A stretch of 64,000 nt of DNA from a virus. Below are positions 7,466 to 60,597 of this stretch, in pieces. The notes beneath the pieces were generated by a model. The model did not search any database and was not told the origin of the DNA. It worked only from the letters and a program-made list of their open reading frames with translations. A program made the translations under genes and the position numbers. Every line of letters starts with the position of its first letter. Position 1 is the stretch's first letter. The stretch is from IMG/VR virus record IMGVR_UViG_3300028840_008180, positions 28,083 through 92,082 of that record; one strand, 5' to 3'.

Positions 7466-8541
7466 TCAACTTGACTCTTTTCGCAAATGTTCTTCAAAGT
7501 TGCCAGTAACTTATCAAAGTCAAGTCCTTTTGGAACTCCCTTCTCTTTGATGTATTCTTCTAGCATTTCTTCTTGGCCGCACGCAACAATGCGTTGTACG
7601 TCCTCAATCTTGTGCCTCGTTTTTACATCCTCTTTTCCCTTGGGTGAAGAAAACTCGAATGTGAGGATGTTGTGACTCTCCATCAAATCCTTTTTGAGGT
7701 CAACAAGATTTGTTGCAGAGATATCCTTTGGTTCCAACTTGATGAACGTGTTATCAAGGTCAAACGTCTCAAGTTCACTCTCCTTGACGATGAGATGCTT
7801 TGGTGAAAAGTCGTTGATCACATAATCCGTCTCTAACGTTTCTGTGTCCAACAATACCAAGTGCTTCTCTTGGAAGGCTTCTGCGAAATTGATCTCTAGT
7901 GGAGACCCAACATATTCGATGTTGTCGATTCGTTGGGCAGCGTGGTAGTGACCGAGGAAAACTCGTCTCCACGGTCGGAACTTCTCCGCATCAACATTCA
8001 CCATGTCTCCCTCATATTCCACTGACACATCTGCGTGTGTTTTGTAGAACGTATTCAACTGGGCTCCGTGCAATGCAATGTGACCGCACAATACAGGAGA
8101 CTGGCTATATGCGAAATGCTCTAGTTCGTCGAGGGGATTCAACGTGAATGGTAGGAAGTCAATGTCCAGACCTTCAATGTTGATCGTTTCACATTTAGTG
8201 ATGATGTTAACGTTGGGGATCGATCCGAGAGGGATGATGCTACTGATGTCAAGCTTGTCAGCGAACCACATATCATGGTTGCCGATTAACATGTGAAGCT
8301 TGAGAGGGGACCCTTCTTCGCCAACATACTTTTTGATGATTTCGTACGTGCGTTGATAAGGTAAGACCTGAATCTTTTCACGGTCTTGAAAAAGGTCACC
8401 AAGAAAGATGATGTGATGCGCTTCTTTTTCGAGCGCAGTTTCAAAAACCCATTTCAGAGCATCGAGACAGTGCTGCAAACGTCTGAGACTGTCTTTGTGT
8501 GCGGCAACATGAATGTCACCTGTCAGTAAAACCTTTGCCAT
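7462..8541 (-). CDS. gp47/SbcD/Mre11-type nuclease subunit
   Basis: Mn-dependent calcineurin-like phosphoesterase that with gp46 processes double-strand ends. 359 residues with all metal motifs visible: GDIHV near the start, GDLF, GNHD, and the two late GH motifs (CGHIALHG and GHYHAAQ). A C-terminal region of about 100 residues is likely the partner-binding part. The stop codon overlaps the gp46 ATG, so the two are translationally coupled. Confidence 0.93.
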   Translation of the reverse strand: MAKVLLTGDIHVAAHKDSLRRLQHCLDALKWVFETALEKEAHHIIFLGDLFQDREKIQVLPYQRTYEIIKKYVGEEGSPLKLHMLIGNHDMWFADKLDISSIIPLGSIPNVNIITKCETINIEGLDIDFLPFTLNPLDELEHFAYSQSPVLCGHIALHGAQLNTFYKTHADVSVEYEGDMVNVDAEKFRPWRRVFLGHYHAAQRIDNIEYVGSPLEINFAEAFQEKHLVLLDTETLETDYVINDFSPKHLIVKESELETFDLDNTFIKLEPKDISATNLVDLKKDLMESHNILTFEFSSPKGKEDVKTRHKIEDVQRIVACGQEEMLEEYIKEKGVPKGLDFDKLLATLKNICEKSQVE

Positions 8542-9080
8542 TAGAATCCTGGGCCAATACCTGGAGGTCCACCCATCCCAGGTCCTGCCGCAGGTCCGCC
8601 CATCGGGGCAGGTCCCATCGGTGCTCCACCCATCGGCGGTGCGCCGGGCGGTGTTGGCGGTGGTGCCATACCCGGCTGCTCTGCACCAGGGGCAGGAGCT
8701 TGGGGAGGAGGAGTTTCTCCACTATCTTTAGTATCGGCAATAGGCTCCCCAGACAATAGTTTTTCTAACAAAGACCAGACATCTTTTGCATTGAGTTCTT
8801 GCTGTGGTGCTGCGGCCTGTCCTGGGGCCCCAGGAGGCCCGCCTAAGCCCGGTCCACCAAGCGGAGGTCCACCTAGTCCGCCGCCGCCCATTGGCGGTGG
8901 AGGGCCTCCTAAGCCGCCTAATGGCCTTCCTCCAAGACCACCACCCATTGGTTTCGGTCCACCAAGTCCTCCCGGTGGTGCGCCAGGGGGTGGTAAAGGA
9001 GCGCCAGCACCAAGACCCCCCGGAGGAGGTCCGCCTAGCGGCTGTTCGTTGATCTGTTTTATGAACGCTTTGAATCGCAT
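8541..9080 (-). CDS. Pro/Gly-rich protein with putative capsid-targeting leader
   Basis: 179 residues. The start at MRFKAFIKQINEQ is chosen because it matches the leader shared by many small proteins in this window. The rest is low complexity: GGPPPGG/LGG/MGG runs, one short helical island (ELNAKDVWSLLEKLLSG), then more Pro/Gly/Met. No enzymatic motif is present; a structural or packaged role is inference from the leader. A TATATA box lies only 4 bases upstream, so any transcript from it would be near-leaderless and a longer N-terminus remains possible. Confidence 0.6.
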   Translation of the reverse strand: MRFKAFIKQINEQPLGGPPPGGLGAGAPLPPPGAPPGGLGGPKPMGGGLGGRPLGGLGGPPPPMGGGGLGGPPLGGPGLGGPPGAPGQAAAPQQELNAKDVWSLLEKLLSGEPIADTKDSGETPPPQAPAPGAEQPGMAPPPTPPGAPPMGGAPMGPAPMGGPAAGPGMGGPPGIGPGF

Positions 9081-9084
9081 GTCG

Positions 9085-9091
9085 TATATAT
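9085..9091 (-). promoter_or_regulatory. TATATA box, candidate late promoter
   Basis: Minus-strand GCATATATACGAC immediately before the MRFKAFI start. It matches the TATATA boxes found before other accessory genes; the very short distance to the ATG lowers confidence. Confidence 0.3.
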
Positions 9092-9239
9092 GCAAAGAAT
9101 TTTCGATATTCGAGCGAACATTTTGGGTCCGAGGAGCGTCTATGATAGTACTCCGGTGTAAAAGTGCGACAACTGACGGTTGTCTTAACATCGAGAGGAA
9201 AAATACTTCCCGGCGTTCCAGTGGGATGTCGGGCCAAAA

Positions 9240-10904: not shown

Positions 10905-11035
10905 CTTGTTTTCACACGAAATCACTAACGAAAGGAGAAACACTCGGTTCCTGATGCTCTGGCGGCTGCGTAGGCCGAAAAGATCAGAGATTGGGCAGAC
11001 GGGCCGATTCACCCCCAACACTGTTGGAGGTTATC

Positions 11036-12205
11036 ATGAGCGAGAAAACTCATGTAAACGTCGGTACCATCGGTCACATCGACCATGGTAAAACAACTCT
11101 TACGGCTGCGATCTTGGCGGTCCAGGCAAGTAAGGGTCTAGCAATTAAGGTTCCCTATGGCAAGATTGCTACTGGCGGAATCGTCCGTGACGATCAGAAG
11201 GTTGTTACGGTAATCACGAGTCACGTTGAGTATGAGACAGAGGACAGGCATTACGCCCATATCGACTGTCCAGGCCACGCAGATTACGTCAAGAACATGA
11301 TCACGGGTGCGGCCCAGATGGACGGGGCAATTTTGCTCGTCTCTGCCGCAGATGGGCCGGAACCCCAGACTCGGGAACACGTTCTGTTGGCAAGACAGGT
11401 CGACGTTCCGAACATCGTTGTCTTCCTGAACAAGTGCGATCTTGTGGAGGACGAGGAATTGATCGAACTGGTCGAGTTGGAAGTCAGAGACCTGTTGACC
11501 GAGTACGGATTCGATGGCGACAATGCCACGGTTGTCCGAGGTAACGCCAAGGGCGCAATGGATGACCCAGAGAACCAGGGTGAGTGCATCACAGAGTTGA
11601 TGAACGCCTTGGGCAAGAACATCCCAGAGCCAATCCGGCAACTCGACAAGCCGTTTATGATGGCTATTGAAGGAGTCTACTCCATCGTTGGCCGAGGAAC
11701 GGTAGTCACTGGTAAGATCGAGCAGGGCAAAGTACAGCCCGGTGATAAGGTGGAGGTCGTAGGTCTGCAAGATAGATCAGAAACGGTCTGCACAAGCATC
11801 GAGCAGTTCAACAAGCAACTGCCTGAAGGGAAAGCTGGTCAGAATGTTGGATGCCTGCTTCGGGGTGTCAAGCATGACGAGGTCCAGCGAGGGCAAGTGC
11901 TGTCGGCTATCAACGCCATACAGCCCTACACTCGATTCAAGGCAGAGACCTATGTTCTGGGTAAGGAAGAGGGCGGAAGGCATACACCGTTCTTCGGTGG
12001 TTACAAGCCCCAGTTCTTCTTCCGAACAACAGACGTGACAGGCATAGTCAATCTGGTGGACGCCGAAATGGTGATGCCAGGAGACCATGTTACGGTAGAA
12101 GTTGAGCTAGATAAACCCGTTGCCCTTTACAAGGGGAACAGATTCGCTGTCCGTGAGGGCGGCAGGACGGTTGGCTCCGGTCGTGTGATCGAAGTCCTAG
12201 CGTGA
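11036..12205 (+). CDS. tuf: phage-encoded translation elongation factor Tu
   Basis: GTPase that delivers aminoacyl-tRNA to the ribosome; 389 residues, full length with all three domains. GHIDHGKT P-loop (13-20), [12 protein letters not shown] switch [14 protein letters not shown] and a C-terminal GGRTVGSG are intact. The switch I region differs: the near-universal RGITI is KVVTV here and the preceding segment is unlike cellular EF-Tu. GGAGG precedes the ATG. It lies among 14 tRNA genes, so the phage supplies both tRNAs and their carrier. Sharing of the domain 2/3 motifs argues for a functional protein rather than a relic. Confidence 0.95.
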
Positions 12206-12209
12206 GATT

Positions 12210-12234
12210 ACGAGCCTTAGCTTCGGCTAGGGCT
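12210..12234 (+). terminator. UUCG-loop hairpin after tuf
   Basis: GAGCCTTAGC-TTCG-GCTAGGGCTC forms a 10-bp stem with one G-U and a UUCG loop just after the tuf stop. There is no T-run, so it may be a processing or stability element between tuf mRNA and the tRNAs rather than a terminator. Confidence 0.5.
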
Positions 12235-12238
12235 CTAC

Positions 12239-12327
12239 GGAAGCGAGGCAAATAATGGTTCGTTGCGGCACTCTGCTAAAGTGTTCCGGGGTAACAGCCG
12301 GTGCTGGTTCAATTCCAGTCGCTTCCG
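12239..12327 (+). tRNA. tRNA-Ser (GCT)
   Basis: Acceptor GGAAGCG/CGCTTCC, anticodon loop CTGCTAA in stem GCACT/AGTGT, long variable arm, discriminator G as in tRNA-Ser, followed by CTT. Confidence 0.9.
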
Positions 12328-12331
12328 CTTT

Positions 12332-12413
12332 GGATAGGATGGTGGTTGGCTCACCAAACGGTCCCGAAAACTGTACCTCGTAAGAGGCCAGAGTTCGATT
12401 CTCTGCCTATCCG
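12332..12413 (+). tRNA. tRNA-Ser (CGA) with C33
   Basis: Acceptor GGATAGG/CCTATCC, variable stem CCTC/GAGG, discriminator G then CTT. The anticodon loop reads CCCGAAA, giving C at position 33 where almost all tRNAs have U. A second tRNA-Ser(CGA) with normal U33 lies at 16044. Confidence 0.82.
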
Positions 12414-12418
12414 CTTAC

Positions 12419-12502
12419 GGAAGTGATCCGGCTGGATGAGGAGCGAATTTTGAAAGTTCGTGGGTGTAAAAAGCCTTTAGGGTTCGAGTCCCTACGCTTC
12501 CG
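12419..12502 (+). tRNA. tRNA-Ser (TGA)
   Basis: Acceptor GGAAGTG/CGCTTCC, anticodon loop TTTGAAA in stem CGAAT/GTTCG, long variable arm, T arm AGGG-TTCGAGT-CCCT, discriminator G then CTT. Confidence 0.9.
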
Positions 12503-12513
12503 CTTGGAGGAAA

Positions 12514-12687
12514 ATGGAACTAGAAGAACACAAAAAAATGCTAATCAAGAACGTTGAGTGTCTTAGAGACAAGTGGCACCGTGTCGATATGGGTCACAAC
12601 AAGATGATCGAAAACATCAAAAAAGCCCAAGCTCTCGAAGAGCTACAAGCTATCGAAACGATTTACAGTACTTGGTTAGATGCTTAG
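12514..12687 (+). CDS. small protein, paralogue A inside the tRNA array
   Basis: 57 residues, charged and helical. GGAGG precedes the ATG. It shares a core with the next gene: LRDKWHRVDMGHNKMIENIK here against YRDKWHKGDFGHTEMIEKIK there, and both end in WLD plus one residue. The pair is a recent duplication set between tRNA genes; function unknown, possibly tRNA- or ribosome-related by position only. Confidence 0.7.
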   Translation: MELEEHKKMLIKNVECLRDKWHRVDMGHNKMIENIKKAQALEELQAIETIYSTWLDA

Positions 12688-12694
12688 GAGGAAC

Positions 12695-12868
12695 ATGACA
12701 TTTGAAGAGGATAAGAAGCCGCTGATCGATTTGATTACATGGTATCGAGACAAATGGCATAAGGGTGACTTCGGTCACACTGAAATGATCGAGAAGATCA
12801 AGGAAACCGACGATCCGAAATTACTGGAATTGTATTGGAAGATTACGGATGGTTGGTTAGATTACTAA
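12695..12868 (+). CDS. small protein, paralogue B inside the tRNA array
   Basis: 57 residues starting MTFEEDKKPLIDL behind AGGAGG; the first bases of its ribosome site overlap the stop of paralogue A, so the two are translated together. Core DKWHKGDFGH matches A. Its stop is followed after one base by tRNA-Leu(GAG). Confidence 0.72.
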   Translation: MTFEEDKKPLIDLITWYRDKWHKGDFGHTEMIEKIKETDDPKLLELYWKITDGWLDY

Positions 12869-12869
12869 T

Positions 12870-12955
12870 GGCCTCGTGCCGGAACAAGGTAGACGGACCA
12901 GACTGAGATTCTGGGGAGCGTTACGCTCGTGCAGGTTCGATTCCTGTCGAGGCCA
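12870..12955 (+). tRNA. tRNA-Leu (GAG)
   Basis: Acceptor GGCCTCG/CGAGGCC, anticodon stem CCAGA/TCTGG with loop CTGAGAT, long variable arm, T arm GCAGG-TTCGATT-CCTGT, discriminator A then CTT. Confidence 0.9.
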
Positions 12956-12960
12956 CTTAT

Positions 12961-13040
12961 GGCGGTGTACGCAAAATGGTAAAGCGGCAGTACTCAAAAT
13001 GCTGTGATGTTGTTTGTCGGTTCGAGTCCGACCACCGCTA
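12961..13040 (+). tRNA. tRNA-Leu (CAA), reduced variable arm
   Basis: Acceptor GGCGGTG/CACCGCT (G1-U72), anticodon loop CTCAAAA in stem CAGTA/TGCTG, T arm GTCGG-TTCGAGT-CCGAC. The variable region is only about 11 nt without an evident stem. Discriminator A, then CTT. Confidence 0.82.
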
Positions 13041-13044
13041 CTTT

Positions 13045-13119
13045 GGCGAGGTAGCCCAATAGGTAGAAGGCGGTAGTTTCAAGAACTACAGGTTGCGGGT
13101 TCGACTCCCGCCCTCGCTA
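13045..13119 (+). tRNA. tRNA with Leu anticodon CAA and short variable loop
   Basis: Acceptor GGCGAGG/CCTCGCT (G1-U72), anticodon stem GTAGT/ACTAC with loop TTCAAGA, variable loop AGGTT (5 nt, class I), T arm GCGGG-TTCGACT-CCCGC, discriminator A then CTC. Leucine identity is inferred from the anticodon; bacterial tRNA-Leu normally has a long arm. Confidence 0.8.
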
Positions 13120-13124
13120 CTCAC

Positions 13125-13199
13125 GCCGGGGTAGCCCAACTGGCAGAAGGCGCATGATTTAGGATCATGAGGTTGAGGGTTCGACTCCCTCCCCCGGTA
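13125..13199 (+). tRNA. tRNA with Leu anticodon TAG and short variable loop
   Basis: Acceptor GCCGGGG/CCCCGGT, anticodon stem CATGA/TCATG with loop TTTAGGA, variable loop AGGTT (5 nt), T arm GAGGG-TTCGACT-CCCTC, discriminator A then CTT. A class II tRNA-Leu(TAG) also exists at 14772. Confidence 0.8.
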
Positions 13200-13204
13200 C
13201 TTAT

Positions 13205-13290
13205 GGCCTTGTGTCGGAATAGGTAGACGAGTGGCGCTCAGACCGCCATGGGTGTAATTGCCCGTGCAGGTTCGATTCCTGTCAAGGCCA
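13205..13290 (+). tRNA. tRNA-Leu (CAG)
   Basis: Acceptor GGCCTTG/CAAGGCC, anticodon stem TGGCG/CGCCA with loop CTCAGAC, long variable arm, discriminator A then CTT. Very similar to tRNA-Leu(GAG) in acceptor and T arm. Confidence 0.9.
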
Positions 13291-13292
13291 CT

Positions 13293-13712
13293 TTATCGTT
13301 TGATAGGAATAGCCCACGGAGTTTCTGGGATTTCTTCAGCGGCAGCAAGAGCGTCTTCAACGGCTTGTCGCATGTCGGGGCCGATGCCCTTCATGACCCA
13401 TTCCTTTTTGCTTGGGTCAGCTTTGATTCGCTTGACGTACTCCGCTACTTTGTCTCGTTTGATAGGAATAGCCCACGGAGTTTCTGGGATTTCTTCAGCG
13501 GCAGCAAGAGCGTCTTCAACGGCTTGTCGCATGGCGGGGCCTAAGCCCTGCATGACCCATTCCTTTTTGCTTGGGTCAGCTTTGATTCGCTTGACGTACT
13601 CCGCTACTTTGTCTCGTGCTCCAGCAGCGATGCCCGCACCCATGTCTCCAAATGCTCCTTTGATATCCCCGTAGCTGCGAGTTTCTAACCATTCATTGAA
13701 TGAGCGTCTCAT
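13293..13712 (-). CDS. tandem-repeat protein with putative capsid-targeting leader
   Basis: 139 residues. It starts MRRSFNEWLETRSYGD (leader motif) behind GGAGGT at the right spacing. The remainder is mostly two nearly identical 53-residue repeats, DKVAEYVKRIKADPSKKEW through AIPIKR, predicted helical. The few differences between the copies (Q/K, L/I, A/D) indicate a recent in-frame duplication. Function unknown; packaging in the virion is inferred from the leader and from a TATATA box 16 bases upstream. Confidence 0.75.
   Translation of the reverse strand: MRRSFNEWLETRSYGDIKGAFGDMGAGIAAGARDKVAEYVKRIKADPSKKEWVMQGLGPAMRQAVEDALAAAEEIPETPWAIPIKRDKVAEYVKRIKADPSKKEWVMKGIGPDMRQAVEDALAAAEEIPETPWAIPIKR
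13297..13614. repeat. 159-bp tandem direct repeat within a gene
   Basis: Copies 13297-13455 and 13456-13614 differ at only a few positions and encode the two 53-residue repeats of the overlapping minus-strand gene. The unit length keeps the frame. Confidence 0.9.
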
Positions 13713-13727
13713 TTCATACCTCCACGG

Positions 13728-13733
13728 TATATA
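13728..13733 (-). promoter_or_regulatory. TATATA box, candidate late promoter
   Basis: Minus-strand CCATATATACCG, 16 bases before the start of the tandem-repeat protein and upstream of its GGAGGT site. Spacing is right for a -10-like late element. Confidence 0.45.
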
Positions 13734-13749
13734 TGGCCTTGCGTCGGGA

Positions 13750-14319
13750 TTAGTAGTACCTGAAATCATTCGCATGCCTCTTGCGAATGATTTCTTTCAA
13801 CTGAGGTGTGAGAAGTTTTTTGAATATCGCTGATCGGGTTGTATTCTTTCTCCTAATCGCCTTAGGTGGTGGTAACCCAATACGTTTGAAGACCTGGGGG
13901 ATGGCATCTTCTATGTTCTCCAAACGTATGACAACATCAACAAGCGATCTCCCCTGCTTATCACATGTGAAAGCTTTGATGTCTACGAAGTGCTTGTAAC
14001 GCTTATTGCGAACATAGGTGTCGAAATCACACCGGGCGGACGCCATGTTTCGCTTTTTCTCAAAAGCGAAACATGACAGAATGCGGTCGAAGGGGTTTCG
14101 GATCGTTGTAAAGACGAAATAGTCGCCCCATCTCCGTCCGGTTTTCTCAATAAATTGCTTTACCTTGTAGGCAGCATCGTGCCGACCCACCGGTTTTGCC
14201 CGCAAACCCTGGTCGTAGACCCGACATTTATAGGCTCGAAAGTGCGAGTGCAGGCTGCTAGAGCCGCATTTCTGATTGGCCAGAAAGATGAACTTGTGAG
14301 TGTGAGATATAACGGTCAT
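13750..14319 (-). CDS. sulfotransferase-family protein
   Basis: Transfers sulfate from PAPS to a hydroxyl or amine, usually on a glycan. 189 residues from MTVISHTHKF. Visible PAPS motifs: 5' phosphosulfate loop NQKCGSSSLHSHF near residues 15-27 and the 3' phosphate motif TIRNPFDRILSCF near 90-100. A longer start at 14343 is possible. It belongs with the methyltransferase and glycosyltransferase genes; acceptor unknown. TAAATACT lies just before the start. Confidence 0.85.
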   Translation of the reverse strand: MTVISHTHKFIFLANQKCGSSSLHSHFRAYKCRVYDQGLRAKPVGRHDAAYKVKQFIEKTGRRWGDYFVFTTIRNPFDRILSCFAFEKKRNMASARCDFDTYVRNKRYKHFVDIKAFTCDKQGRSLVDVVIRLENIEDAIPQVFKRIGLPPPKAIRRKNTTRSAIFKKLLTPQLKEIIRKRHANDFRYY

Positions 14320-19231: not shown

Positions 19232-19654
19232 ATGCGATTCGGCCAATGGCTCCTACTCAACGAAGTTCCGCACAAGACACTCAGAGTGCCTATCGAATAC
19301 GAGGGTAACTTCATCATGATCATTGATCTGAAAGTGGAGGATTGGCGGATTGATGAAGAGGATGAAGAGACAAAGCTTATCCAACGCCGGTTGATGATGG
19401 CCCTACCGCCACCACCACCATACTACGGCTTCATACCCGATTCCGGTGGCCGCTATCTTTATTATGACGGAAACGAGGAGTATCGCTTTGAGCTTACCAG
19501 AACCGAACCATCTAGGGGAATCAACCTAGACGAGTTGAATATCGGAGGCTCCTGGTGGGATTATGTCGAGGGAGTAGACCAGGACAATAACATGGTTAAG
19601 AAACCGTCACCACCAATACCCTCTCGTATCCCTCAAAGGGTCCGTACCCAGTAG
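19232..19654 (+). CDS. hypothetical protein with putative capsid-targeting leader
   Basis: 140 residues beginning MRFGQWLLLNEV. GGAGAGAATC precedes the ATG. The middle contains a Pro run in ALPPPPPYYGF and a Tyr-rich segment (GRYLYYDGNEEY) like that of the 18504 gene product, suggesting distant relationship. Its 3' end overlaps the convergent glycosyltransferase-like gene by 22 bases. Confidence 0.72.
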   Translation: MRFGQWLLLNEVPHKTLRVPIEYEGNFIMIIDLKVEDWRIDEEDEETKLIQRRLMMALPPPPPYYGFIPDSGGRYLYYDGNEEYRFELTRTEPSRGINLDELNIGGSWWDYVEGVDQDNNMVKKPSPPIPSRIPQRVRTQ

Positions 19655-22037: not shown

Positions 22038-23113
22038 AAACCTACCGTCTCGTGCCAAATTTGCCTAATATGCCCATCGAAATACGGCTTAAGTTCCGTG
22101 TATCGATGTTGTATCTGTTCTCCCAACTCTCCGATGCGGGCAACATGATCCTCAACTTGATCTTCGATATCCCTATCGGTAAGCTTCAATACTCTTCCGC
22201 CTCCCCTGTAAAGGAGATTATCACCGTCCACTTTACAACTCTTTGAGGCGATTGGGAGGAATGGGCATCCAGAAAGGAAGGACATGACTGTTCCGTGGTG
22301 TCGGCCTGTGATGTTCAGAGATGCTTGTGAGCACAGCCGGATATAGTCTTTGAAGTAGACCACATTGACACGCTCCACCGGTAATTTGTATCGTTTCATG
22401 AACTCGTTGAAAAACACATCATCGCCCTTGATCATGCTGGGCCAGCCAACCAGAACAATTTCGTATTGGTGCTTGTACTGTAGCAACTGATCAACGATTC
22501 TCTTGTATCCCTTCATCGCCACGTCAGTGGACACGGTTTTCAAACATGTCCCACCACCAACCATAATGATATTATCTCGCCACGTATCAGCTTTTTTGTG
22601 CGTGCAGGTAAGGTCGGGGAAGAGCTTAACTTTGGGGAATAGGGGTTTCACTCGGTCGAATGACATGGGCTCCCGCACGCTTACGCCGACGCAGTCGGCG
22701 TAAGCGTGCTGTGCTTGCCTGTTGTTCCCCTTACTGTGGATATTGTGCGTGTAGTTCACCATGTAGGTTTTTACGCCTGCGTTTTTTGCCTTGTGGATGA
22801 GTGAGAAGATTCCCTTCGAGACGTTGGAAAGGCGATCTTTGCTATACTCGCCCATTCCGCCCTCACCGTTGATGATCATGAAGTCGTAATTCTGAATACT
22901 CAATCCACCGGTGGTACGGGTGATGCTTTTCCCGCCACGGTAAACACGTTCTCTCATTGTGATCCGCCGCCCGTTGAGGAGCGACCGGAGGGTGATACAG
23001 TCTATGTCTGTTTCTGGCTGGTATTTCAGGATGTTCTCGTACAACGCCGCCGTGTTTGCTTGGCAGCCCAGATTTGGGTTGGTAGAAGTATCACAAGTAA
23101 GCAAAATTCGCAT
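22034..23113 (-). CDS. polysaccharide pyruvyl transferase-family protein
   Basis: 359 residues. Family features: start MRILLTCDTSTNPNLGCQAN, NGEGGMG near 80, and the C-terminal ITGRHHGTVMSFLSGCPFLP near 283-302. Members attach ketal pyruvate to sugars of exopolysaccharide or secondary wall polymers. AAGGAGTT precedes the ATG and a TATATA box lies 16 bases up. A perfect 16-bp hairpin lies within the gene. Confidence 0.83.
   Translation of the reverse strand: MRILLTCDTSTNPNLGCQANTAALYENILKYQPETDIDCITLRSLLNGRRITMRERVYRGGKSITRTTGGLSIQNYDFMIINGEGGMGEYSKDRLSNVSKGIFSLIHKAKNAGVKTYMVNYTHNIHSKGNNRQAQHAYADCVGVSVREPMSFDRVKPLFPKVKLFPDLTCTHKKADTWRDNIIMVGGGTCLKTVSTDVAMKGYKRIVDQLLQYKHQYEIVLVGWPSMIKGDDVFFNEFMKRYKLPVERVNVVYFKDYIRLCSQASLNITGRHHGTVMSFLSGCPFLPIASKSCKVDGDNLLYRGGGRVLKLTDRDIEDQVEDHVARIGELGEQIQHRYTELKPYFDGHIRQIWHETVGL
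22675..22709. repeat. coding-region hairpin, perfect 16-bp arms
   Basis: GCACGCTTACGCCGAC, loop GCA, exact complement, inside the pyruvyl transferase gene. Confidence 0.9.
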
Positions 23114-30422: not shown

Positions 30423-30451
30423 GTATCGTCACTAATCGCACGAAACTTTAG
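30423..30451 (-). promoter_or_regulatory. CTAAAG-N14-TGACGATAC promoter
   Basis: Minus-strand bipartite element with one change (A for C), 20 bases from the amidinotransferase ATG; the -35-like part overlaps the end of the upstream gene. Confidence 0.65.
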
Positions 30452-30804
30452 CCTTCTGGGCTGATATCCTCAGGTTCGGGGGTAGAATCACCTAATCCTG
30501 GTAGTTCAGGAGGGGTTGCCGCCTTGCCTACTTTTGTGAGCCCATCGAGCCTATCCACCTCATTGATAAGCTCTTGTATGGATTTCTGACCATGGCTGCC
30601 GATCCAACCCTGAATTTCTGAGAGGTAACTCCGTAATTCGGAGTACTTTTCAAGGTCTTTGGGCAGTCGGGGGTATTGGTCTATCCGAGCGGAAAGAACG
30701 TTGTTCACGGTTTCATCATCTGCGCCTGCTGCGCCAACGGCGTCAAGCACAATCCGCCTCGCCTCGCCATGAGTGATTTCTTCTAGCCAGAGCTTGAACC
30801 TCAT
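30448..30804 (-). CDS. hypothetical protein with putative capsid-targeting leader
   Basis: 118 residues starting MRFKLWLEEITHGEA, a textbook copy of the leader. The body is helical, ending in a Pro/Glu-rich tail (PGLGDSTPEPED). Coupled by ATGA to the upstream secreted protein gene. Function unknown; virion packaging inferred. Confidence 0.75.
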   Translation of the reverse strand: MRFKLWLEEITHGEARRIVLDAVGAAGADDETVNNVLSARIDQYPRLPKDLEKYSELRSYLSEIQGWIGSHGQKSIQELINEVDRLDGLTKVGKAATPPELPGLGDSTPEPEDISPEG

Positions 30805-32670: not shown

Positions 32671-33129
32671 CTAAATCCAAGGTGGTGCTTTCTCTGGGGG
32701 TTTATAGAGTGGTAATTTGCCCTCTCGAAGAATCTGTTTGACGTGGTCGATGGCTTGACCTATGTTATAAATGGTCTCTAATAGGTCGGGATCATCCTCT
32801 TCAGAACGAACACCCACCTTGAGGTCCTCATATTGTTCGGTGGCAGCATCAACCAGCATCTCTAACACTGCCTTCGGAATCATGGGGTCGGGAACGCTAT
32901 CGCAGATGGTTGCGTTAACGATATTGCCGCAAAGCCGTTCTTCCACCAGCGGGTCTATCCAGTACATTTCGCCGCACTTCCAACACTTGATGATCTCGAC
33001 TTCTTGATGTTGTTGGCCTGGGTAGAATCCGACGATCCAGTTCATAGCACAGCAGTCGGGGCACTCTCGACATTCATAGGGTATGTCTTCCCTACCGAGC
33101 CACTTCAAATTCATATTGATATTCGACAT
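32671..33129 (-). CDS. zinc-ribbon protein
   Basis: 152 residues with two Cys pairs, CRECPDCC near 20-27 and CWKCG near 49-53, expected to bind one zinc, followed by a helical C-terminal region. AAGGAG precedes the ATG. Possibly a nucleic-acid or protein-binding adaptor; not further assignable. Confidence 0.72.
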   Translation of the reverse strand: MSNINMNLKWLGREDIPYECRECPDCCAMNWIVGFYPGQQHQEVEIIKCWKCGEMYWIDPLVEERLCGNIVNATICDSVPDPMIPKAVLEMLVDAATEQYEDLKVGVRSEEDDPDLLETIYNIGQAIDHVKQILREGKLPLYKPPEKAPPWI

Positions 33130-33832
33130 GGAAGAACTCCTTAATCCCTTCCGTTAGGCCCGGTTCATAGAGCCCGAAGTCGATGTGGAAGATCGAGTCA
33201 ACCGTTAGTTTATGATCTTTCAACCACTCATGCAAGACCGGTGACAAAAGGGCGTAGTACGGGCTGAGTTGACCGTTAGCTACCCACCGTAGCAATGCAC
33301 GTCCCTCTACCGCTTTTTCCACGTTCTCCCGTGTTAATTCCTTCAATCGGGTTGTGAGAAACTCCTTATCATCCATGAGTAGCCCCGTGACACGTTTTTC
33401 GTCGTTCCGGTCAACTCCCCGCTCCTCGGCGGTAAGTGGTTGGGCTATTTGGTAATCGTACAGTTTCTTCCAAAGATACCACCTCTTCCAAGCCCTCTCA
33501 CCTAACAAGCAACTTGGGGTGACACACAGGAGGTAATCTTTGTTCTTCTTCGTCATGGACTTTAGTATGTCGAACTGCGCCCGGACGTATAACGGATAAT
33601 CACTATCCTCTATCTGCCTGTCCTTTTCACGCAACAGTTTGTAACAACATTTGAACAGGTAGGTCTTGCGAGGGTCGCCACGATTCGCCCTTCCCATCTG
33701 GTCAGGGCATGCCCGGCGCATGTTGTCCTTGAACAAACAAGCAATCTTGTATGCCTTCGCTTCCATTGAAGTCATCTCATAGTTGAGAATCGTTTCAAGG
33801 CATCTTATTTCCATTGACATAGATTCTGACAT
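33092..33832 (-). CDS. hypothetical helical protein
   Basis: 246 residues from MSESMSMEIRCLE (starts at 33820 or 33814 also possible). Mostly helical, with Cys and basic residues (IACLFKDNMRRACPDQMGR, LFKCCYKLLREK). Its start overlaps the end of the last array paralogue and its end overlaps the zinc-ribbon gene, so it is part of the same operon. Not recognised. Confidence 0.65.
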   Translation of the reverse strand: MSESMSMEIRCLETILNYEMTSMEAKAYKIACLFKDNMRRACPDQMGRANRGDPRKTYLFKCCYKLLREKDRQIEDSDYPLYVRAQFDILKSMTKKNKDYLLCVTPSCLLGERAWKRWYLWKKLYDYQIAQPLTAEERGVDRNDEKRVTGLLMDDKEFLTTRLKELTRENVEKAVEGRALLRWVANGQLSPYYALLSPVLHEWLKDHKLTVDSIFHIDFGLYEPGLTEGIKEFFHVEYQYEFEVAR

Positions 33833-34148
33833 TGTCGGCGGTCCAATAAGCACTACCAAGTTTTTTCTTGCCGGTAATATAGATGGCAATCATGCCGTTT
33901 CCCACTTTGAAGTTGATCCTAAAATTGGCCTCATATGAGCTAGCTGAATCGTTTCCAAGTAAGTAACTGTTGAAAGCCCCTTTCTCCTTAAAGAACTCCA
34001 GTACCATCTTCAATCGGCACGACCTAACGAAGGTGCAAGACAGATTCACATCGACCGATTCGATGGACTTCTTGAGACACTTTCCCAAGAACCTCAACAT
34101 CATGGCCCTATGAGCATTATTCAGTCGTGGGAACTCTTCGTAAATCAT
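33795..34148 (-). CDS. YEEFP-family array protein 6
   Basis: 117 residues beginning MIYEEFPRLNNAHRAM. Shares the array pattern: N-terminal M-x-Y-E-(D/E)-F-P-x-L, a helical middle leading to (F/L)-F-x-x-K-x-A-F (here FFKEKGAF), then a beta-rich end. Last of six coupled paralogues and the most divergent at the C-terminus. Family not recognised. Confidence 0.78.
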   Translation of the reverse strand: MIYEEFPRLNNAHRAMMLRFLGKCLKKSIESVDVNLSCTFVRSCRLKMVLEFFKEKGAFNSYLLGNDSASSYEANFRINFKVGNGMIAIYITGKKKLGSAYWTADNVRIYVNGNKMP

Positions 34149-34483
34149 CCGACCATCGTTCCATCTCGGTAAATCCAGAAACAGTGGTAACCATTACAAT
34201 TAAACAACTTCGTGTAGACTCTTATCTTTATACGAGGTTGCAACCCGTGCCCAGTTATCTCTTCTATCTCAATGGTGTGGCTTTCCAACCCGTTCTTATT
34301 CATAAAAAACTTACAGACGCACGCAAGGTCATTTTCTATACAACGCCTCACCAAACCAAACCCGACGCCACCACCGTACAAGTTCCGAAATCTCTTCACC
34401 ACATTCCTACACGTTGCGTCTATCAACTTCAGCAACGTCGTTGTCGCTACATCTTTCAAGTCTGGGAACTCTTCGTACCTCAT
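34145..34483 (-). CDS. YEEFP-family array protein 5
   Basis: 112 residues beginning MRYEEFPDLKDVATTTL, then a helix, FFMNKNGLES and a beta-rich tail. Overlaps both neighbours by ATGA, so it can only be translated efficiently as part of the chain. Confidence 0.78.
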   Translation of the reverse strand: MRYEEFPDLKDVATTTLLKLIDATCRNVVKRFRNLYGGGVGFGLVRRCIENDLACVCKFFMNKNGLESHTIEIEEITGHGLQPRIKIRVYTKLFNCNGYHCFWIYRDGTMVG

Positions 34484-34818
34484 GCAACTACCCTTCGCTC
34501 TACCGCCATCTGCCCGTCTGGCACCAGTAGAAAATCCAGGTTCTGTAGGTTCTTCTGAAACCCCAGGTAGACACTAACCTCAATATCACCACGATCATTT
34601 CTCTTTACAAAGTACGATGAAACAAGCATTGCACTCTTACTCTTGAAAAACCGTAGGACCTCCCTAATACCTAGGTCGATGGCACTTACCAACCTCTCCG
34701 ACTCAAATATCCAGACACCGTAGTGCTCGAAAATCGCATTCGTACAAGAGGATTTGATTAACTTTACAACCACGTCCTCGCTACCACCTCTCAGATTCGG
34801 AAACTCTTCGTATCTCAT
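34480..34818 (-). CDS. YEEFP-family array protein 4
   Basis: 112 residues beginning MRYEEFPNLRGGSEDVV, with FFKSKSAMLVSS and a C-terminal strand LDFLLVPDGQ. The start is chosen by alignment with its paralogues and by the ATGA overlap with the upstream gene; a longer in-frame reading exists but lacks support. Confidence 0.78.
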   Translation of the reverse strand: MRYEEFPNLRGGSEDVVVKLIKSSCTNAIFEHYGVWIFESERLVSAIDLGIREVLRFFKSKSAMLVSSYFVKRNDRGDIEVSVYLGFQKNLQNLDFLLVPDGQMAVERRVVA

Positions 34819-35180
34819 CCCACGATCCTCCATCGACCATCCGACACGCAAACAATATATGGAAAGATGCGGGGGTAACCCTTCCGCATGTCGAAACTTA
34901 CCAACCAATGATCCGGTGTGCCTAGTGCTTCTATAGTAATACCACTAGCCTCGAAGGCGTGCTTAGAGTTGAAGAATTGTTGCAGTCGTTCCAAGTCTAT
35001 CCGCACGTACCTCAAATGTGTCCGTCTCGCCGAGTCGAGGTGATGCTGCTCCACCATACCAAAGAAACTGTAACTGATAAGTAGCGAATCTCTGATCGAA
35101 TTGCGTATAGATTGCTCCACCAACTTGCTAAGTGGTATAGGTCTCGCATTCTTCAAGTTTGGGAAGTCTTCGTATTTCAT
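34815..35180 (-). CDS. YEEFP-family array protein 3
   Basis: 121 residues beginning MKYEDFPNLKNARPIPL, with FFNSKHAFEASG and a C-terminus ending VCVSDGRWRIVG. The aromatic-rich end resembles arrays 1 and 2 (NNQWVVE, NMRWVVTR), supporting common ancestry over the full length. Confidence 0.8.
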   Translation of the reverse strand: MKYEDFPNLKNARPIPLSKLVEQSIRNSIRDSLLISYSFFGMVEQHHLDSARRTHLRYVRIDLERLQQFFNSKHAFEASGITIEALGTPDHWLVSFDMRKGYPRIFPYIVCVSDGRWRIVG

Positions 35181-35545
35181 CTCGTTACAACCCATCTCAT
35201 GTTGTCGATCCTAATTCCAAATACGAGACAACCATGCTTCGGCCCAAAAGTACCGAATCTTTCGTAGGTAAAGTATAACCGCCACTTCTTCCCTGCAACC
35301 CTTGTTACTTGTGTAGCCGAAGACTTAAACGCACGTTTATTTTTGAAGAAACGACGCACCTCATTTAAGCCGTTTTGCACCTTGGTCAACTCTGGATTGA
35401 GGTTCGCAAGCTCTACAACTGTTGGCCCCTCAGTGTACCAATATCTAAGTGACTTTTCAATGGCACGTTGAAACGATTTACCCATCAACGATACCACCCG
35501 AGTTCGGTTAGCCGTTAAGAGGTCTGGGAAGTCTTCGTAATTCAT
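35177..35545 (-). CDS. YEEFP-family array protein 2
   Basis: 122 residues beginning MNYEDFPDLLTANRTRV, with FFKNKRAFKSSATQV and the end IDNMRWVVTR. ATGA overlaps at both ends. Confidence 0.8.
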   Translation of the reverse strand: MNYEDFPDLLTANRTRVVSLMGKSFQRAIEKSLRYWYTEGPTVVELANLNPELTKVQNGLNEVRRFFKNKRAFKSSATQVTRVAGKKWRLYFTYERFGTFGPKHGCLVFGIRIDNMRWVVTR

Positions 35546-35898
35546 TCCACCACCCATTGGTTATTTTTGAGAAGAACGCTGAAGGTTACTCTACATGTAC
35601 TTGAACGTCTTAGAAAGCTAACATTGATACTCCACCTGGGCCCGGTTCCCTTATGCGTACTAACATACGAATGCTGAAAGGCATCTTTTTTCTCAAAAAA
35701 GCGACAGATGCTTTCCAAATCCCGACGCAAATCAAGCATATCTTCGAGCAAAGCCCGCATAGATGATGGGTGGCCGTTTACGTCGGTGTACAACCTCTTA
35801 AGCGATGCGGCTGTCGCCTTCATGAATACCACCTTCAAGAAAATCGCCAGCTTAGTCCCGTCCGCCGTTTGTAGGTTTGGGAAATCTTCGTACAACAT
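35542..35898 (-). CDS. YEEFP-family array protein 1
   Basis: 118 residues beginning MLYEDFPNLQTADGTKL, with FFEKKDAFQHSYV and the end LLKNNQWVVE. First gene of the six-member chain; a long hairpin lies 20 bases before its start. No family is recognised, and nothing suggests catalysis or membrane insertion; a small alpha/beta binding protein is the most neutral description. Confidence 0.8.
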   Translation of the reverse strand: MLYEDFPNLQTADGTKLAIFLKVVFMKATAASLKRLYTDVNGHPSSMRALLEDMLDLRRDLESICRFFEKKDAFQHSYVSTHKGTGPRWSINVSFLRRSSTCRVTFSVLLKNNQWVVE

Positions 35899-35918: not shown

Positions 35919-35958
35919 CCACCACCACTCTCCTGCGGGTGCAGGAGAGTGGTGGTGG
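35919..35958. repeat. 18-bp perfect hairpin in the leader of the array operon
   Basis: CCACCACCACTCTCCTGC, loop GGGT, exact complement. It lies in the presumed 5' leader of the six-gene operon and lacks a T-run, so it may protect or regulate the mRNA. Confidence 0.85.
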
Positions 35959-36063
35959 TGCCGTACCATTGGTTCTATCTCTTTTATCGGATTTTGGTTA
36001 AAGATTGTTGAGGCTTTCTTCCGATACCAAGAAAATACCACTATCGATACTACCTTAAGCGCA

Positions 36064-36362: not shown

Positions 36363-37574
36363 ATGCGCTGTCAGGACTACTTGAAGAAAGGTTTCAAGGT
36401 CATTCCACTACAAGTGCGAAGTAAGGAACCTTGTTTCAAACAATGGAACAAACAGTGGTACCGGAAGACGGCCCAGATCATCACTTTCTTTCAAAAGCAT
36501 CCTAATGCCAACATCGGCGTACTGCTTGGTGACTTCTTAGACATTGAAGCCGATGATGAAGCGGCAAACGAATTGTTAGATTTACTTGTAAGTGATTACC
36601 CGCACCCAACCTACCAAAGTTCTAAGTCTCGACACCACCTCTTCAGAAACATATACCCGTCATTGACAAGAAAGACATTCAACGGTATCGAGTTCAGGGC
36701 ATTCAAACATCAATCGGTGTTACCGCCGAGTATTCATCCTGATGGAACGGTTTACACTTGGATTGATTTCAACGGTGGTGAAGTTCCTAATCCGCCGTAC
36801 AAAATCATCCAATATCTTCGACAGAGAAAGGTCTTCCCCGCTGGTAAGTATCTCATGCCCTGGTGTTCGGAGTGTGGCCGAAACTTGGTGGTTAAGAAAC
36901 GAAATTTTCAACGAGAGATAGAGGTTTTTCGTAGGTTAGGACAGAAGTGGCAGTGTGTTAATTGTCGTAGTAAGGAGGTTACGGAGCGTTGTAAATCTTT
37001 GAAGTACGCCAAGAGGAAGGTTGAGAGGCAGAAGCGTAGGCATATCCGAAGACAACAGAAGGACGAATTAAAGATTGGTGTTCAAAAGGGTCGTCGAGCC
37101 CGGATTGATATCATACGCAAGAGGCTATTGAAGGTTCCCGGCAAGGGCGAGAAAGAGTTCGGAATCATATTGGACATTCTCACCGAATGCTACGGTAAGA
37201 AACTCTTCAAGTATAAGCGACAGCGGCCATTCATCGTCCCTGAGGCTAAGTATCAAGAGCAATTTTTCTTCATCGACTTCTTCATTTATCCGTTTCGGAT
37301 GTGTATCGAAATAGATGGTAGTTCGCACAACCGGAAATCGCAACAAGCTTGGGATAGGTGGCGCAGTTCGATCTTAGAATCGCACAAGATCAAGGTGGTC
37401 CGTTTTTCTGACAAACTTGTGTTGCGTGATCCTGGGGCCGTTGTTAAAGAGCTTTTGGAAGAGATGTCTTGTTTTGACGGATGGGTTGGTAAGGATTTGA
37501 TCCGCAAGTTTAAGGAATGCCCGGTATACCTTGCCCAAGCGTATATTGAGGGTAAGTTTCGGAAACATCGCTAA
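36363..37574 (+). CDS. PrimPol-type primase fused to zinc finger and Vsr/DUF559-like nuclease
   Basis: 403 residues, three modules. About 1-150: bifunctional primase-polymerase N-terminal domain (GFKVIPLQVRSKEP, WYRKTAQIITFFQKH, NANIGVLLGDFLDIEADD with the metal-binding acids, SKSRHHLF). About 160-200: Cys-pair zinc binding (CSECG ... CVNCRSK). About 260-400: Vsr/DUF559-type nuclease (FIDFFIYPFRMCIEIDGSSH, then WRSSILESHKIKVVRF). PrimPol proteins start DNA chains; joining one to this nuclease fold is unusual. Neighbour of the DNA polymerase. CAGGAG precedes the ATG. Confidence 0.78.
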   Translation: MRCQDYLKKGFKVIPLQVRSKEPCFKQWNKQWYRKTAQIITFFQKHPNANIGVLLGDFLDIEADDEAANELLDLLVSDYPHPTYQSSKSRHHLFRNIYPSLTRKTFNGIEFRAFKHQSVLPPSIHPDGTVYTWIDFNGGEVPNPPYKIIQYLRQRKVFPAGKYLMPWCSECGRNLVVKKRNFQREIEVFRRLGQKWQCVNCRSKEVTERCKSLKYAKRKVERQKRRHIRRQQKDELKIGVQKGRRARIDIIRKRLLKVPGKGEKEFGIILDILTECYGKKLFKYKRQRPFIVPEAKYQEQFFFIDFFIYPFRMCIEIDGSSHNRKSQQAWDRWRSSILESHKIKVVRFSDKLVLRDPGAVVKELLEEMSCFDGWVGKDLIRKFKECPVYLAQAYIEGKFRKHR

Positions 37575-40778: not shown

Positions 40779-40822
40779 AAAACCACCCCCTGCGGCTTTG
40801 CCCGCAGGGGGTGGTTTTTTGC
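40779..40822. terminator. bidirectional intrinsic terminator
   Basis: AACCACCCCCTGCGG, loop CTTTGC, complementary arm, then six T on the plus side and A-rich on the other, between convergent thioredoxin and CAP genes. Confidence 0.88.
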
Positions 40823-50623: not shown

Positions 50624-50661
50624 GTATGACCGTGCTAAATACCCCAAGACCAGGAGATATC

Positions 50662-51273
50662 ATGCGAAAGACTTTTTTCGAGTGGATTAGTAATAGGACC
50701 GGTGAGTTGTTAAATGAGGATGAGCGGTATGCGGCAGTTCAACCTATGCGAGCCGCCTCTAAAGGAGTTCAGCAAGCGGTCGAAGCGTTGATGACCGCTC
50801 TCGACACCGCCGCAAAATTTGACCGAACTAATCGAGTGGCGACATTAGTCCAACAGTTTCGGTCCAAGGTATGGGAACAAGACAGTCAGGGTAATTATCT
50901 ATTAGAATTGATAGGTCAATACCCAGAAAATGTCCCCCCAAATTATGTTAATACATTGACAGCAGCGGTGCGTGATATTCTTGCCATGGGTCGTGGGCCT
51001 GCTCAGGGCGGCGCAAGGGGTGGTGAGGAGTTGTGGGGCCTACCCCCGGAACAAGCCCAACCACTTAGAGACGCATTGAAGAATGCCCGACAGGTCCTTA
51101 GTGGTTTCCAGAAAGCTCTCGACGCATTCAATACTGCTTATGGTAGATCGGGAGCAGCGCCTGCCGCACCTGCCGCACCTGCCGCACCTGCCGCACCTGC
51201 CGCCCAAGGCTATCGACCAGCAGGCCAAGCTCAACCTCAAGCCCCAGCTACGCAAGTGGCCCAACAGGCATAA
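50662..51273 (+). CDS. helical Ala/Pro-tailed protein with putative capsid-targeting leader
   Basis: 203 residues from MRKTFFEWISNRTGELL, a leader variant, behind CAGGAGA. Long helical body, then a low-complexity tail of APA repeats (GAAPAAPAAPAAPAAPAA) and Gln/Pro. No enzymatic motif. CTAAATACC just upstream resembles a late promoter. Packaged scaffold-like or internal protein is inference. Confidence 0.72.
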   Translation: MRKTFFEWISNRTGELLNEDERYAAVQPMRAASKGVQQAVEALMTALDTAAKFDRTNRVATLVQQFRSKVWEQDSQGNYLLELIGQYPENVPPNYVNTLTAAVRDILAMGRGPAQGGARGGEELWGLPPEQAQPLRDALKNARQVLSGFQKALDAFNTAYGRSGAAPAAPAAPAAPAAPAAQGYRPAGQAQPQAPATQVAQQA

Positions 51274-51513: not shown

Positions 51514-51550
51514 ACCACCACCTTCCACGCCTAGCGTGGAAGGTGGTGGT
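51514..51550. repeat. 17-bp perfect hairpin
   Basis: ACCACCACCTTCCACGC, loop CTA, exact complement, immediately after the membrane peptide stop. No T-run; the CACC-rich stem resembles that at 35919. Confidence 0.88.
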
Positions 51551-54803: not shown

Positions 54804-55598
54804 TCATGGCTGGAGATATCTGACGATCCACAGATTCTCGGGGCGGAACCGTAGTTCCTTTTCATAGGGGATATGCTCTGGTTGAGCGTCCTTGCGAGCG
54901 GCGACTTGAATAATAGCGACTTGGCTGGGGTCGATCTCACGCATTTGTTCAAAGCTTCCCGTGAAACCTATCACCCCCATCTCATAAGCAGGTTGATCTC
55001 CACCTTCTGAGCTTGTGATGGTGGTTTCTAACTCTTGGAACAAGCTGTATATCTGTTTGGGTGTTTTAATATATTGGTTGATTAGTGAGGAGTCACCCCA
55101 TTCAATTTTTTCAATTACACTCTTGGGTAAGCCATAGTCTTCTAATATACCGAATAGTTCGCCTTCGAGTTCTTCATCATGTGGATCAATCCGTCCTAGC
55201 ATGCTATCCCACACGGTTGACGCTGGAACTTGTCCTTGAACTAGCTCTGCCACAAATTTGATTTCTTCGTAGATTTGTTGTGCTCGATACCAGTCGTAGG
55301 TTACAGAAATAAGGTCCGGAGCCTCGCTCATTGGACCACCGCCCAGGCCAACTTTTCCTCCAAGTTCCCTTCTACTCTTCAGTCTTCCCGATTGGCGGAC
55401 GGCGTCGATAGCTGTTGTGACATGGTAGAGATTCTGTTCTTCTGGGGGTGCCTCTTCCATTTCGGGATCGATCACGTTGGGGTCGACAAACTCCCCCGCT
55501 TTTCTTTGAACCCCTGGTTCATGGGTGAATGGAAACTCCTTCTGCCTTCCGCCGAGGAGCGACTTCCACTTCGCTTCTAACCACAACTTGAAGTTCAT
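54804..55598 (-). CDS. putative packaged ADP-ribosyltransferase-like protein
   Basis: 264 residues with leader MNFKLWLEAKWKS. NLYHVTTAIDAVRQSGRLKS near 56-75 and LISVTYDWYRAQQIYEEIKF near 94-113 resemble the NAD-binding start and the second motif of ADP-ribosyltransferases; a candidate catalytic Glu lies in the late ELRFRPE region. T4 packages the ADP-ribosyltransferase Alt with a similar type of leader. The enzyme assignment is tentative. Third gene of a three-gene chain with ATGA overlap. Confidence 0.55.
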   Translation of the reverse strand: MNFKLWLEAKWKSLLGGRQKEFPFTHEPGVQRKAGEFVDPNVIDPEMEEAPPEEQNLYHVTTAIDAVRQSGRLKSRRELGGKVGLGGGPMSEAPDLISVTYDWYRAQQIYEEIKFVAELVQGQVPASTVWDSMLGRIDPHDEELEGELFGILEDYGLPKSVIEKIEWGDSSLINQYIKTPKQIYSLFQELETTITSSEGGDQPAYEMGVIGFTGSFEQMREIDPSQVAIIQVAARKDAQPEHIPYEKELRFRPENLWIVRYLQP

Positions 55599-56053
55599 GT
55601 CTCTTCCCTCCAAAAATCAGTAGATCGTCGGTCACGATCCCAAACATAAGCGAATTTTTCGGCTTCATCTTCATCCATTGGCATATCAAACATCTCTTGA
55701 ATGGCATGAGCTAGTTCGTGGACGATTGTGGTTTCGATCCCCACTTTACATTCTGCCCCATACTCCTCGCAGGCTTTTTGGATGTTACCCATATCCAGCA
55801 TGATGACAGGATGGGTGGAAGTACCGCTGGCATATTTGCCTAACTCATCAAGACCAGTAACGTAGGCGATGTCAAAGTCTCTGAAAACTCGGATTTCAGG
55901 CAACAAGTTTGCCTTCAAACCCTTAACAATACCATCTACGAGAACAGTTAGTTGCGGCTCTTCGTCTTCCTCATAGTCCCAACTGGCGTCGTAGTCGTGA
56001 CTGCGGTGCGGTAAGCCATCCTGCCAATCTTCCAACCACTGCTTGAAGTTCAT
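55595..56053 (-). CDS. zincin metalloprotease with putative capsid-targeting leader
   Basis: 152 residues with leader MNFKQWLEDWQDG. The zinc motif is TIVHELAHAIQEMF near 108-121, with an acidic residue cluster (DEDEAEKFA) supplying the third ligand. Small single-domain zincin fold. With its leader it would be delivered into the cell at infection. ATGA overlaps both neighbours. Confidence 0.82.
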   Translation of the reverse strand: MNFKQWLEDWQDGLPHRSHDYDASWDYEEDEEPQLTVLVDGIVKGLKANLLPEIRVFRDFDIAYVTGLDELGKYASGTSTHPVIMLDMGNIQKACEEYGAECKVGIETTIVHELAHAIQEMFDMPMDEDEAEKFAYVWDRDRRSTDFWREET

Positions 56054-56346
56054 ATCTTATTACCCTCATCATCTTCCAATGTGTTAACTAATCCCTTCTC
56101 TCGCATACGAACCCAGTATTTCCACGAAGGGTCGTCGGGCGAGTTGCCGATACCGACAACGTGAATGGGGCCGTGCCGCTTTAGCTCTAGCAACGCTTTC
56201 TCTGTATCACCCATCCCAGGGCTATTAGACCACCACTCGTAGATGGCGACATAATCTTCACCGATATCAATTTCGCCGCCCACCGAGCCATCTTCGCTTC
56301 TCCAATTAGAAATAGACTCGTTGATTAGCCATAGTTTGAAGTTCAT
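56050..56346 (-). CDS. hypothetical protein with putative capsid-targeting leader
   Basis: 98 residues with leader MNFKLWLINES. An alpha/beta remainder has HGPIHVVGIGNSPDDPSWKYW and RMREKGLVNTLEDDEG, a pattern I associate with small phage proteins of unknown role. First of the three-gene chain. Confidence 0.72.
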   Translation of the reverse strand: MNFKLWLINESISNWRSEDGSVGGEIDIGEDYVAIYEWWSNSPGMGDTEKALLELKRHGPIHVVGIGNSPDDPSWKYWVRMREKGLVNTLEDDEGNKI

Positions 56347-56380
56347 GGTGTTATCTAGCTCACTCATACTCATTTAGGTC

Positions 56381-60554: not shown

Positions 60555-60597
60555 AACCACCCGCCCCGGCATCGCCGGGGCGGGTGGTTTTGTTTTT
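60555..60597 (+). terminator. strong intrinsic terminator
   Basis: AACCACCCGCCCCGGC, loop ATC, complementary arm, then TTTTGTTTTT; ends the ssb transcript. Confidence 0.9.

Follow-up and report, generated by a model that had tools for sequence, protein, structure and literature searches.

Six diverged tandem paralogues near the polymerase gene of an uncultured T4-like phage

Large phages give much of their DNA to uncharacterised accessory genes. In one such phage, six consecutive small genes encode proteins that begin with a common motif and then diverge, which raises the question of what this family is, how it arose, and why a phage would carry six versions of it. We examined the locus in a window of 64,000 nucleotides, corresponding to bases 28083-92082 of the 92,082-base virus record IMGVR_UViG_3300028840_008180. 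This record covers part of the genome of a large uncultured T4-like myovirus. Its left end encodes the tail sheath, tail tubes, a sheath stabiliser, a neck adaptor, and the baseplate hub, and elsewhere it contains replication and recombination genes, 13 tRNAs, and an EF-Tu gene.

Some other features of the record were observed along the way. To the left of the window, at record 11571-13567, the sheath gene is followed by three consecutive tail-tube-like paralogues. The EF-Tu gene (window 10991-12205), with a homologue in the relative G009 that is 67% identical, sits among the 13 tRNA genes, the majority of which are for Leu and Ser; Tu has already been reported from huge phages (PMC7162821). 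An SbcC/gp46-like protein of 1098 residues (window 4169-7465) appears to be interrupted in its N-terminal half by an intein (CFGKGTPILMYDG...VVHNS), and the alignment of its relatives begins only at residue 481.

Organisation, divergence, and predicted fold of the array

The array consists of six head-to-tail ORFs on the minus strand (window 35898-33795), all present where the original prediction had placed them, and each encodes 112-122 residues. They are c1, the first gene (35542..35898, 118 residues, pI 9.5), c2 (35177..35545, 122 residues, pI 10.4), c3 (34815..35180, 121 residues, pI 9.5), c4 (34480..34818, 112 residues, pI 6.6), c5 (34145..34483, 112 residues, pI 8.8), and c6 (33795..34148, 117 residues, pI 9.7). 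The five internal junctions are all ATGA, in agreement with the 4-base stop/start overlaps described at the outset. Such coupling makes the predicted expression of the six genes linked, not stoichiometric as had been proposed. NTGA overlaps are frequent in this phage, with 18 among 65 tight same-strand neighbours counted with an automatic caller that overlooked some of the array junctions, and five ATGA overlaps in a row are unremarkable alone because duplication would copy the junction.

Downstream of the array, in the same direction, lies gpX (33092..33814, minus strand), a conserved unknown gene of 240 codons whose homologues stand beside polA in relatives. The c6/gpX junction is not ATGA; instead, gpX begins within c6, with an overlap of at least 20 nt and alternative upstream ATGs. 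A gene of 152 codons follows gpX in the same direction (32671..33129, minus strand); its sequence has two Cys pairs (C-x2-C, zinc-ribbon-like) and no family match in the Pfam and PHROGs scans. Also beside the array, a gene at 36363-37574 fuses a Prim-Pol domain to a DUF559/MTES_1575 nuclease-like domain. The idea that gpX might be the T4 gp59 helicase loader was rejected (hhalign 0.15%; PF08993 not found).

The six proteins had been proposed to be diverged tandem paralogues, and shuffle tests support real homology, with copies at 15-30% identity. The expected start, M-x-Y-E-[DE]-F-P-x-L, is present in all six. The second proposed motif, FF-x-x-K-x-A-F, stands in part: FFxxK is invariant, but the full form occurs in only four proteins, with FFKSKSAM in c4 and FFMNKNGL in c5. 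Nine residues are invariant, six of them within the first nine positions and three from FFxxK. Over the full length, all 15 pairs score above 300 of 300 shuffles (z 5-26). When the first 10 residues are removed, the real score is reached by at most 1 of 300 shuffles in nine pairs and by 7-23 of 300 in the remaining six. Since nine pairs stay beyond chance without the first ten residues, the bodies are related too. A profile built from the six members matches exactly these six proteins across the entire record.

Synonymous differences between copies are saturated (pS 0.66-0.87), so that dN/dS between them is uninformative. Nevertheless, pN is 0.08-0.30 in the first 10 codons versus 0.50-0.60 overall, which shows clear purifying selection only in the N-terminal tag.

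AlphaFold models of c1 (pLDDT 83.8, pTM 0.76) and c4 (pLDDT 86.0, pTM 0.80), which are 21% identical, display the same topology, two helices and then four strands, in line with the original prediction of a common family. We predict from these models that each array product is a small, mostly basic single domain in which the two helices pack with a four-stranded antiparallel sheet. Foldseek searches with both models returned nothing below E 0.001. The top PDB match of the c1 model was IraD (E 0.019, TM 0.45), and the same model matched a BFVD 'putative tail lysozyme' (TM 0.50), which would place the array in a gp25-type baseplate or IraD-like anti-adaptor fold family. However, a TM below 0.5 is no fold assignment, and the lead was not repeated with the better c4 model, for which IraD lies outside the top matches. 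The hhalign probabilities were 0.2% for T4 gp25 and 6.3% for IraD, PF04965 is absent from the record, and no array protein matches it. With both the c4 model and the profile comparisons against it, this assignment is largely refuted, and we consider it very improbable. A PIP-box-like reading of the stretch h-x-x-h-x-x-F-F was dropped because the stretch lies within predicted helix 2 and is probably part of the core.

The six proteins could also form an obligate hetero-oligomer, as six non-equivalent subunits of one mixed ring or complex held together via the N-terminal arm and FFxxK. The predicted translational coupling of all six genes, the conservation of these two elements, and the common predicted topology are consistent with such an assembly. 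Nevertheless, the bodies diverge in an uncoupled way, with insertions that reach about 15 residues and pI values from 6.6 to 10.4, and no relative examined has a partial or single-copy version, all of which makes a mixed complex of this kind doubtful in our view.

Occurrence of the family in databases and related phages

No phage family of this form had been recognised in the original prediction, and indeed we find no credible match in Pfam, PHROGs, NCBIfam, PADLOC, or a PDB sequence search; the best PADLOC hit, for one member, is at chance level (E 0.027). No relative was found by tblastn of the array in INPHARED phages and in plasmids, or by a scan of IMG/VR with the array profile. Two N-terminal DNA patterns yielded in IMG/VR, among the matches listed, only loci that were unrelated or chance by HMM, and an N-terminal pattern scan of genome_contigs gave no array relative; these pattern scans detect solely relatives that retain the N-terminal motif. 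The array is an orphan family in every library and collection searched.

Relatives of the phage itself were recovered in IMG/VR with sheath and DnaB profiles, the sheath C-terminal domain reaching up to about 70% identity, whereas scanning IMG/VR with polA, Prim-Pol, or UvsX as single proteins recovered none. Searched with the array profile, 43 of these related IMG/VR records give no match. In G010 and G018, the gpX homologue and polA are divergent neighbours across an empty 495-bp gap, with zero array copies. In the 595-kb phage LR756511, gpX adjoins another polymerase-like gene and polA, again with zero array copies there, and the sequence upstream of gpX in G002 is free of array genes. Copy number, which had been named as a point to compare among related phages, is therefore not constant: it is zero at the syntenic site in four phages, which makes the array lineage-specific. 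The Prim-Pol fusion gene is likewise missing from the polA-gpX neighbours of relatives. Given that the gpX-polA neighbourhood exists in relatives without the array, we consider the array and the adjoining Prim-Pol gene to be an insertion or expansion of this lineage. The array looks recently expanded and diversified, and a six-fold diversification in one operon, next to zero copies in relatives, points to strong local selection.

Predicted promoter and leader, and a possible accessory function

The sequence TGCCGATA is enriched upstream of genes, and from it we derived a phage promoter motif, CTNAAG-N14-TGNCGATA, for which we count 16 sites at 14.3 bits or more versus 0.8 expected. Strong sites precede uvsW, polA, dnaB, the gene for the ssDNA-binding protein, and several unknown genes, and none of them precedes the sheath and tail-tube genes. 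Sites occur at window 15498, 17551, 17594, 25964, 26886, 30451, 37571, 42697, 59391, 62796, and other positions. The motif is missing from six relatives, except for two matches in G009.

Upstream of c1 we find a promoter-like site, CTCAAC-N14-ATCCGATA (35985..36012, minus strand, score 14.3), for which 0.002 occurrences are expected on that strand of the 465-bp gap, the threshold being the site's own score. Its CTCAAC and its spacing are identical at uvsW. A weaker element, [CT]TA[AT]ATAC, is present before the sheath, neck, and some other genes without clear genome-wide enrichment (9 found versus 3-10 in shuffles) and was not found in the gap upstream of the array. The T4 late promoter TATAAATA has 0 sites in this phage. 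We infer that the array is expressed early or middle, together with the replication genes, a class that derives solely from the genes downstream of the motif sites.

The predicted 5' leader of the array mRNA contains a perfect 18-bp hairpin (35919..35958, minus strand, z -6.7), placed downstream of the promoter-like site and ahead of c1. It does not look like a terminator; its role might be that of an attenuator or a stabiliser of the mRNA. Perfect hairpins of 16-19 bp with CCACC in their 5' arms are seen at window 35919-35958, 40779-40818, 51514-51550, and 60555-60589, and at record 5462-5500 and 22436-22476; some end in T runs and resemble terminators.

The location and promoter bear on the possibility that the array is a replication accessory family, in which diverged basic proteins would cooperate with gpX and polA, for example by binding DNA or the replisome. 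The genes lie between polA/Prim-Pol and gpX, run in the gpX direction with c6 overlapping gpX, share a promoter class common to replication genes, and encode mostly basic proteins. However, relatives keep the same polA-gpX pair without such genes, and six strongly diverged copies would be unusual for a replisome part. A role of this kind therefore seems to us rather improbable.

We tentatively favour another reading, in which the array is an accessory family that grew by tandem expansion and is expressed alongside the replication genes, its members sharing an N-terminal peptide for docking while their bodies have diversified to meet host targets. Tandem duplication would have expanded an accessory gene between the gpX gene and polA, and a replication-class phage promoter would drive one translationally coupled message carrying all six genes, early or middle in infection and not with the tail and head genes. 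The common part would consist of residues 1-9 and the end of helix 2 that carries FFxxK, serving as folding core, as a dock for one partner, or both. The remainder of each protein has diverged, and different copies may contact different host targets; their most likely use would be as inhibitors of host defence or as takeover proteins.

Several observations are consistent with this accessory family: the homology of all copies, with the same predicted secondary-structure order in the two modelled; the concentration of purifying selection in the first 10 codons; the zero copies at the syntenic site in relatives, with none in the 43 records or INPHARED; and the promoter motif shared with replication genes, together with the missing structural-gene element in the array gap. 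There is also a precedent, since T4 amplifies the counter-defence gene tifA in tandem (PMC9391042). Nevertheless, the array has no anti-defence or takeover homologue, an accessory family does not require a conserved N-terminal nine-mer, and the promoter match of the array, at 14.3 bits, falls short of the strongest sites, at 18-23 bits. In addition, the array could also work in replication, as it runs on into gpX, a gene kept next to polA.

In a more specific and quite improbable version, the array would be a six-member toolkit in which the N-terminal peptide docks on one phage or host hub and each body neutralises a different host defence. A single operon would then hold a multi-valent counter-defence set, able to gain and lose members through tandem duplication. 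If members do block different defences, this would be an unusually compact counter-defence cassette. The array offers six natural variants of one small fold that can be screened against host functions.

Comparison with internal head proteins and other known systems

The main alternative, though an unlikely one, is that the array proteins are ejected internal head proteins, like T4 IPI, IPII, and IPIII or the inner-head paralogues of giant phages, whose N-terminus targets them to the prohead, which are packed and injected with the DNA, and whose bodies block different host nucleases. A conserved N-terminus on diverged small basic bodies is the pattern of the T4 internal proteins, which have a common capsid-targeting sequence and differing bodies (PMC3012670). 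In T4 IPIII, targeting is carried by residues Y4 and F7 (PMC9026906). The Y-E-[DE]-F of the array has this Y4/F7 spacing, and the aromatic pair Y3-x-x-F6 is found in all six proteins. Of 1072 called genes, only 3 start with M-x(1,2)-Y-x-[DE]-F, and T4 ipII and ipIII are two of these, although the Y-x-[DE]-F comparison was chosen with both sequences already seen. The relatives G003 and LR756511 encode a T4-type prohead protease (PF03420), and head paralogue families of giant phages have 2 to 20 members (PMC5694885).

The clade has a dispersed N-terminal tag of its own, M-x(1,2)-F-[KR..]-x-[WF]-[LIVM] (candidate form M-x(1,2)-F-K-x-[WF]-[LI]), on otherwise unrelated proteins. In the window, it starts genes at 30448-30804, 54804-55613, 55595-56053, 56050-56373, 19232-19654, 8541-9191, 13293-13775, and 50626-51273, and to the left of the window one at record 4528-4800; it is also seen in G002, G003, G004, G009, and G018. 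Across this phage and six relatives, 23 genes carry the tag, compared with 3 matches at 3395 internal Met. Among 251 T4 genes, the tag matrix puts ipI in first place and ipII/ipIII in seventh, and a gp21-type [LI]xE site, expected shortly after the tag, occurs in 13 of 26 tagged clade proteins versus 66 of 795 untagged ones (P 9e-8). The dispersed tag is probably a T4-like capsid-targeting signal that marks ejected head cargo. T4 IPI* inhibits a restriction enzyme. Three consecutive tagged genes (window 54804-56373; MNFKLWL, MNFKQWL, MNFKLWL) are joined by ATGA overlaps, and the middle one has a HELAH, zinc-protease-like motif.

The array scores poorly by the same measures. The tag matrix (PSSM) gives its members -4.5 to 2.2, ranks 16-65 of 124 genes, and an [LI]xE cleavage site occurs in none of the six proteins; the PSSM ranks and the absent site rule out the array tag as a copy of the dispersed one. 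A proline directly after the second aromatic residue, the replication-class promoter, and the distance from structural genes also argue against internal head proteins. We do not claim the array as a T4-type internal protein family, and consider a similar mode of working conceivable but on the unlikely side. If array proteins did occur in virions, they would carry a second type of head-targeting tag beside that of the clade. The confidence left over after all these readings belongs to causes not considered here.

Three known systems resemble the array in part. Like it, T4 IPI, IPII, and IPIII are small and basic, with a conserved N-terminus and diverged bodies, and vary among relatives; ipII and ipIII are moreover neighbouring genes with a Y-x-E-F core. 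The array differs in its missing [LI]xE site, the proline after the core, the homologous bodies in all six copies, the number of copies, and the replication-class promoter. The inner-head families A and B of SPN3US and phiKZ are likewise expanded paralogues with a shared N-terminus, whose copy number varies from 2 to 20 among phages (PMC5694885). Unlike the array, they are larger and found in virions, with family A propeptides of more than 100 residues, and in this comparison the array has no sequence match to PHROG and Pfam families. The T4 anti-toxin gene tifA is, like the array genes, a small phage accessory gene expanded in tandem, in its case under host-defence pressure. Its laboratory amplifications are identical copies, whereas the array copies have diverged to 15-30% identity within one operon.
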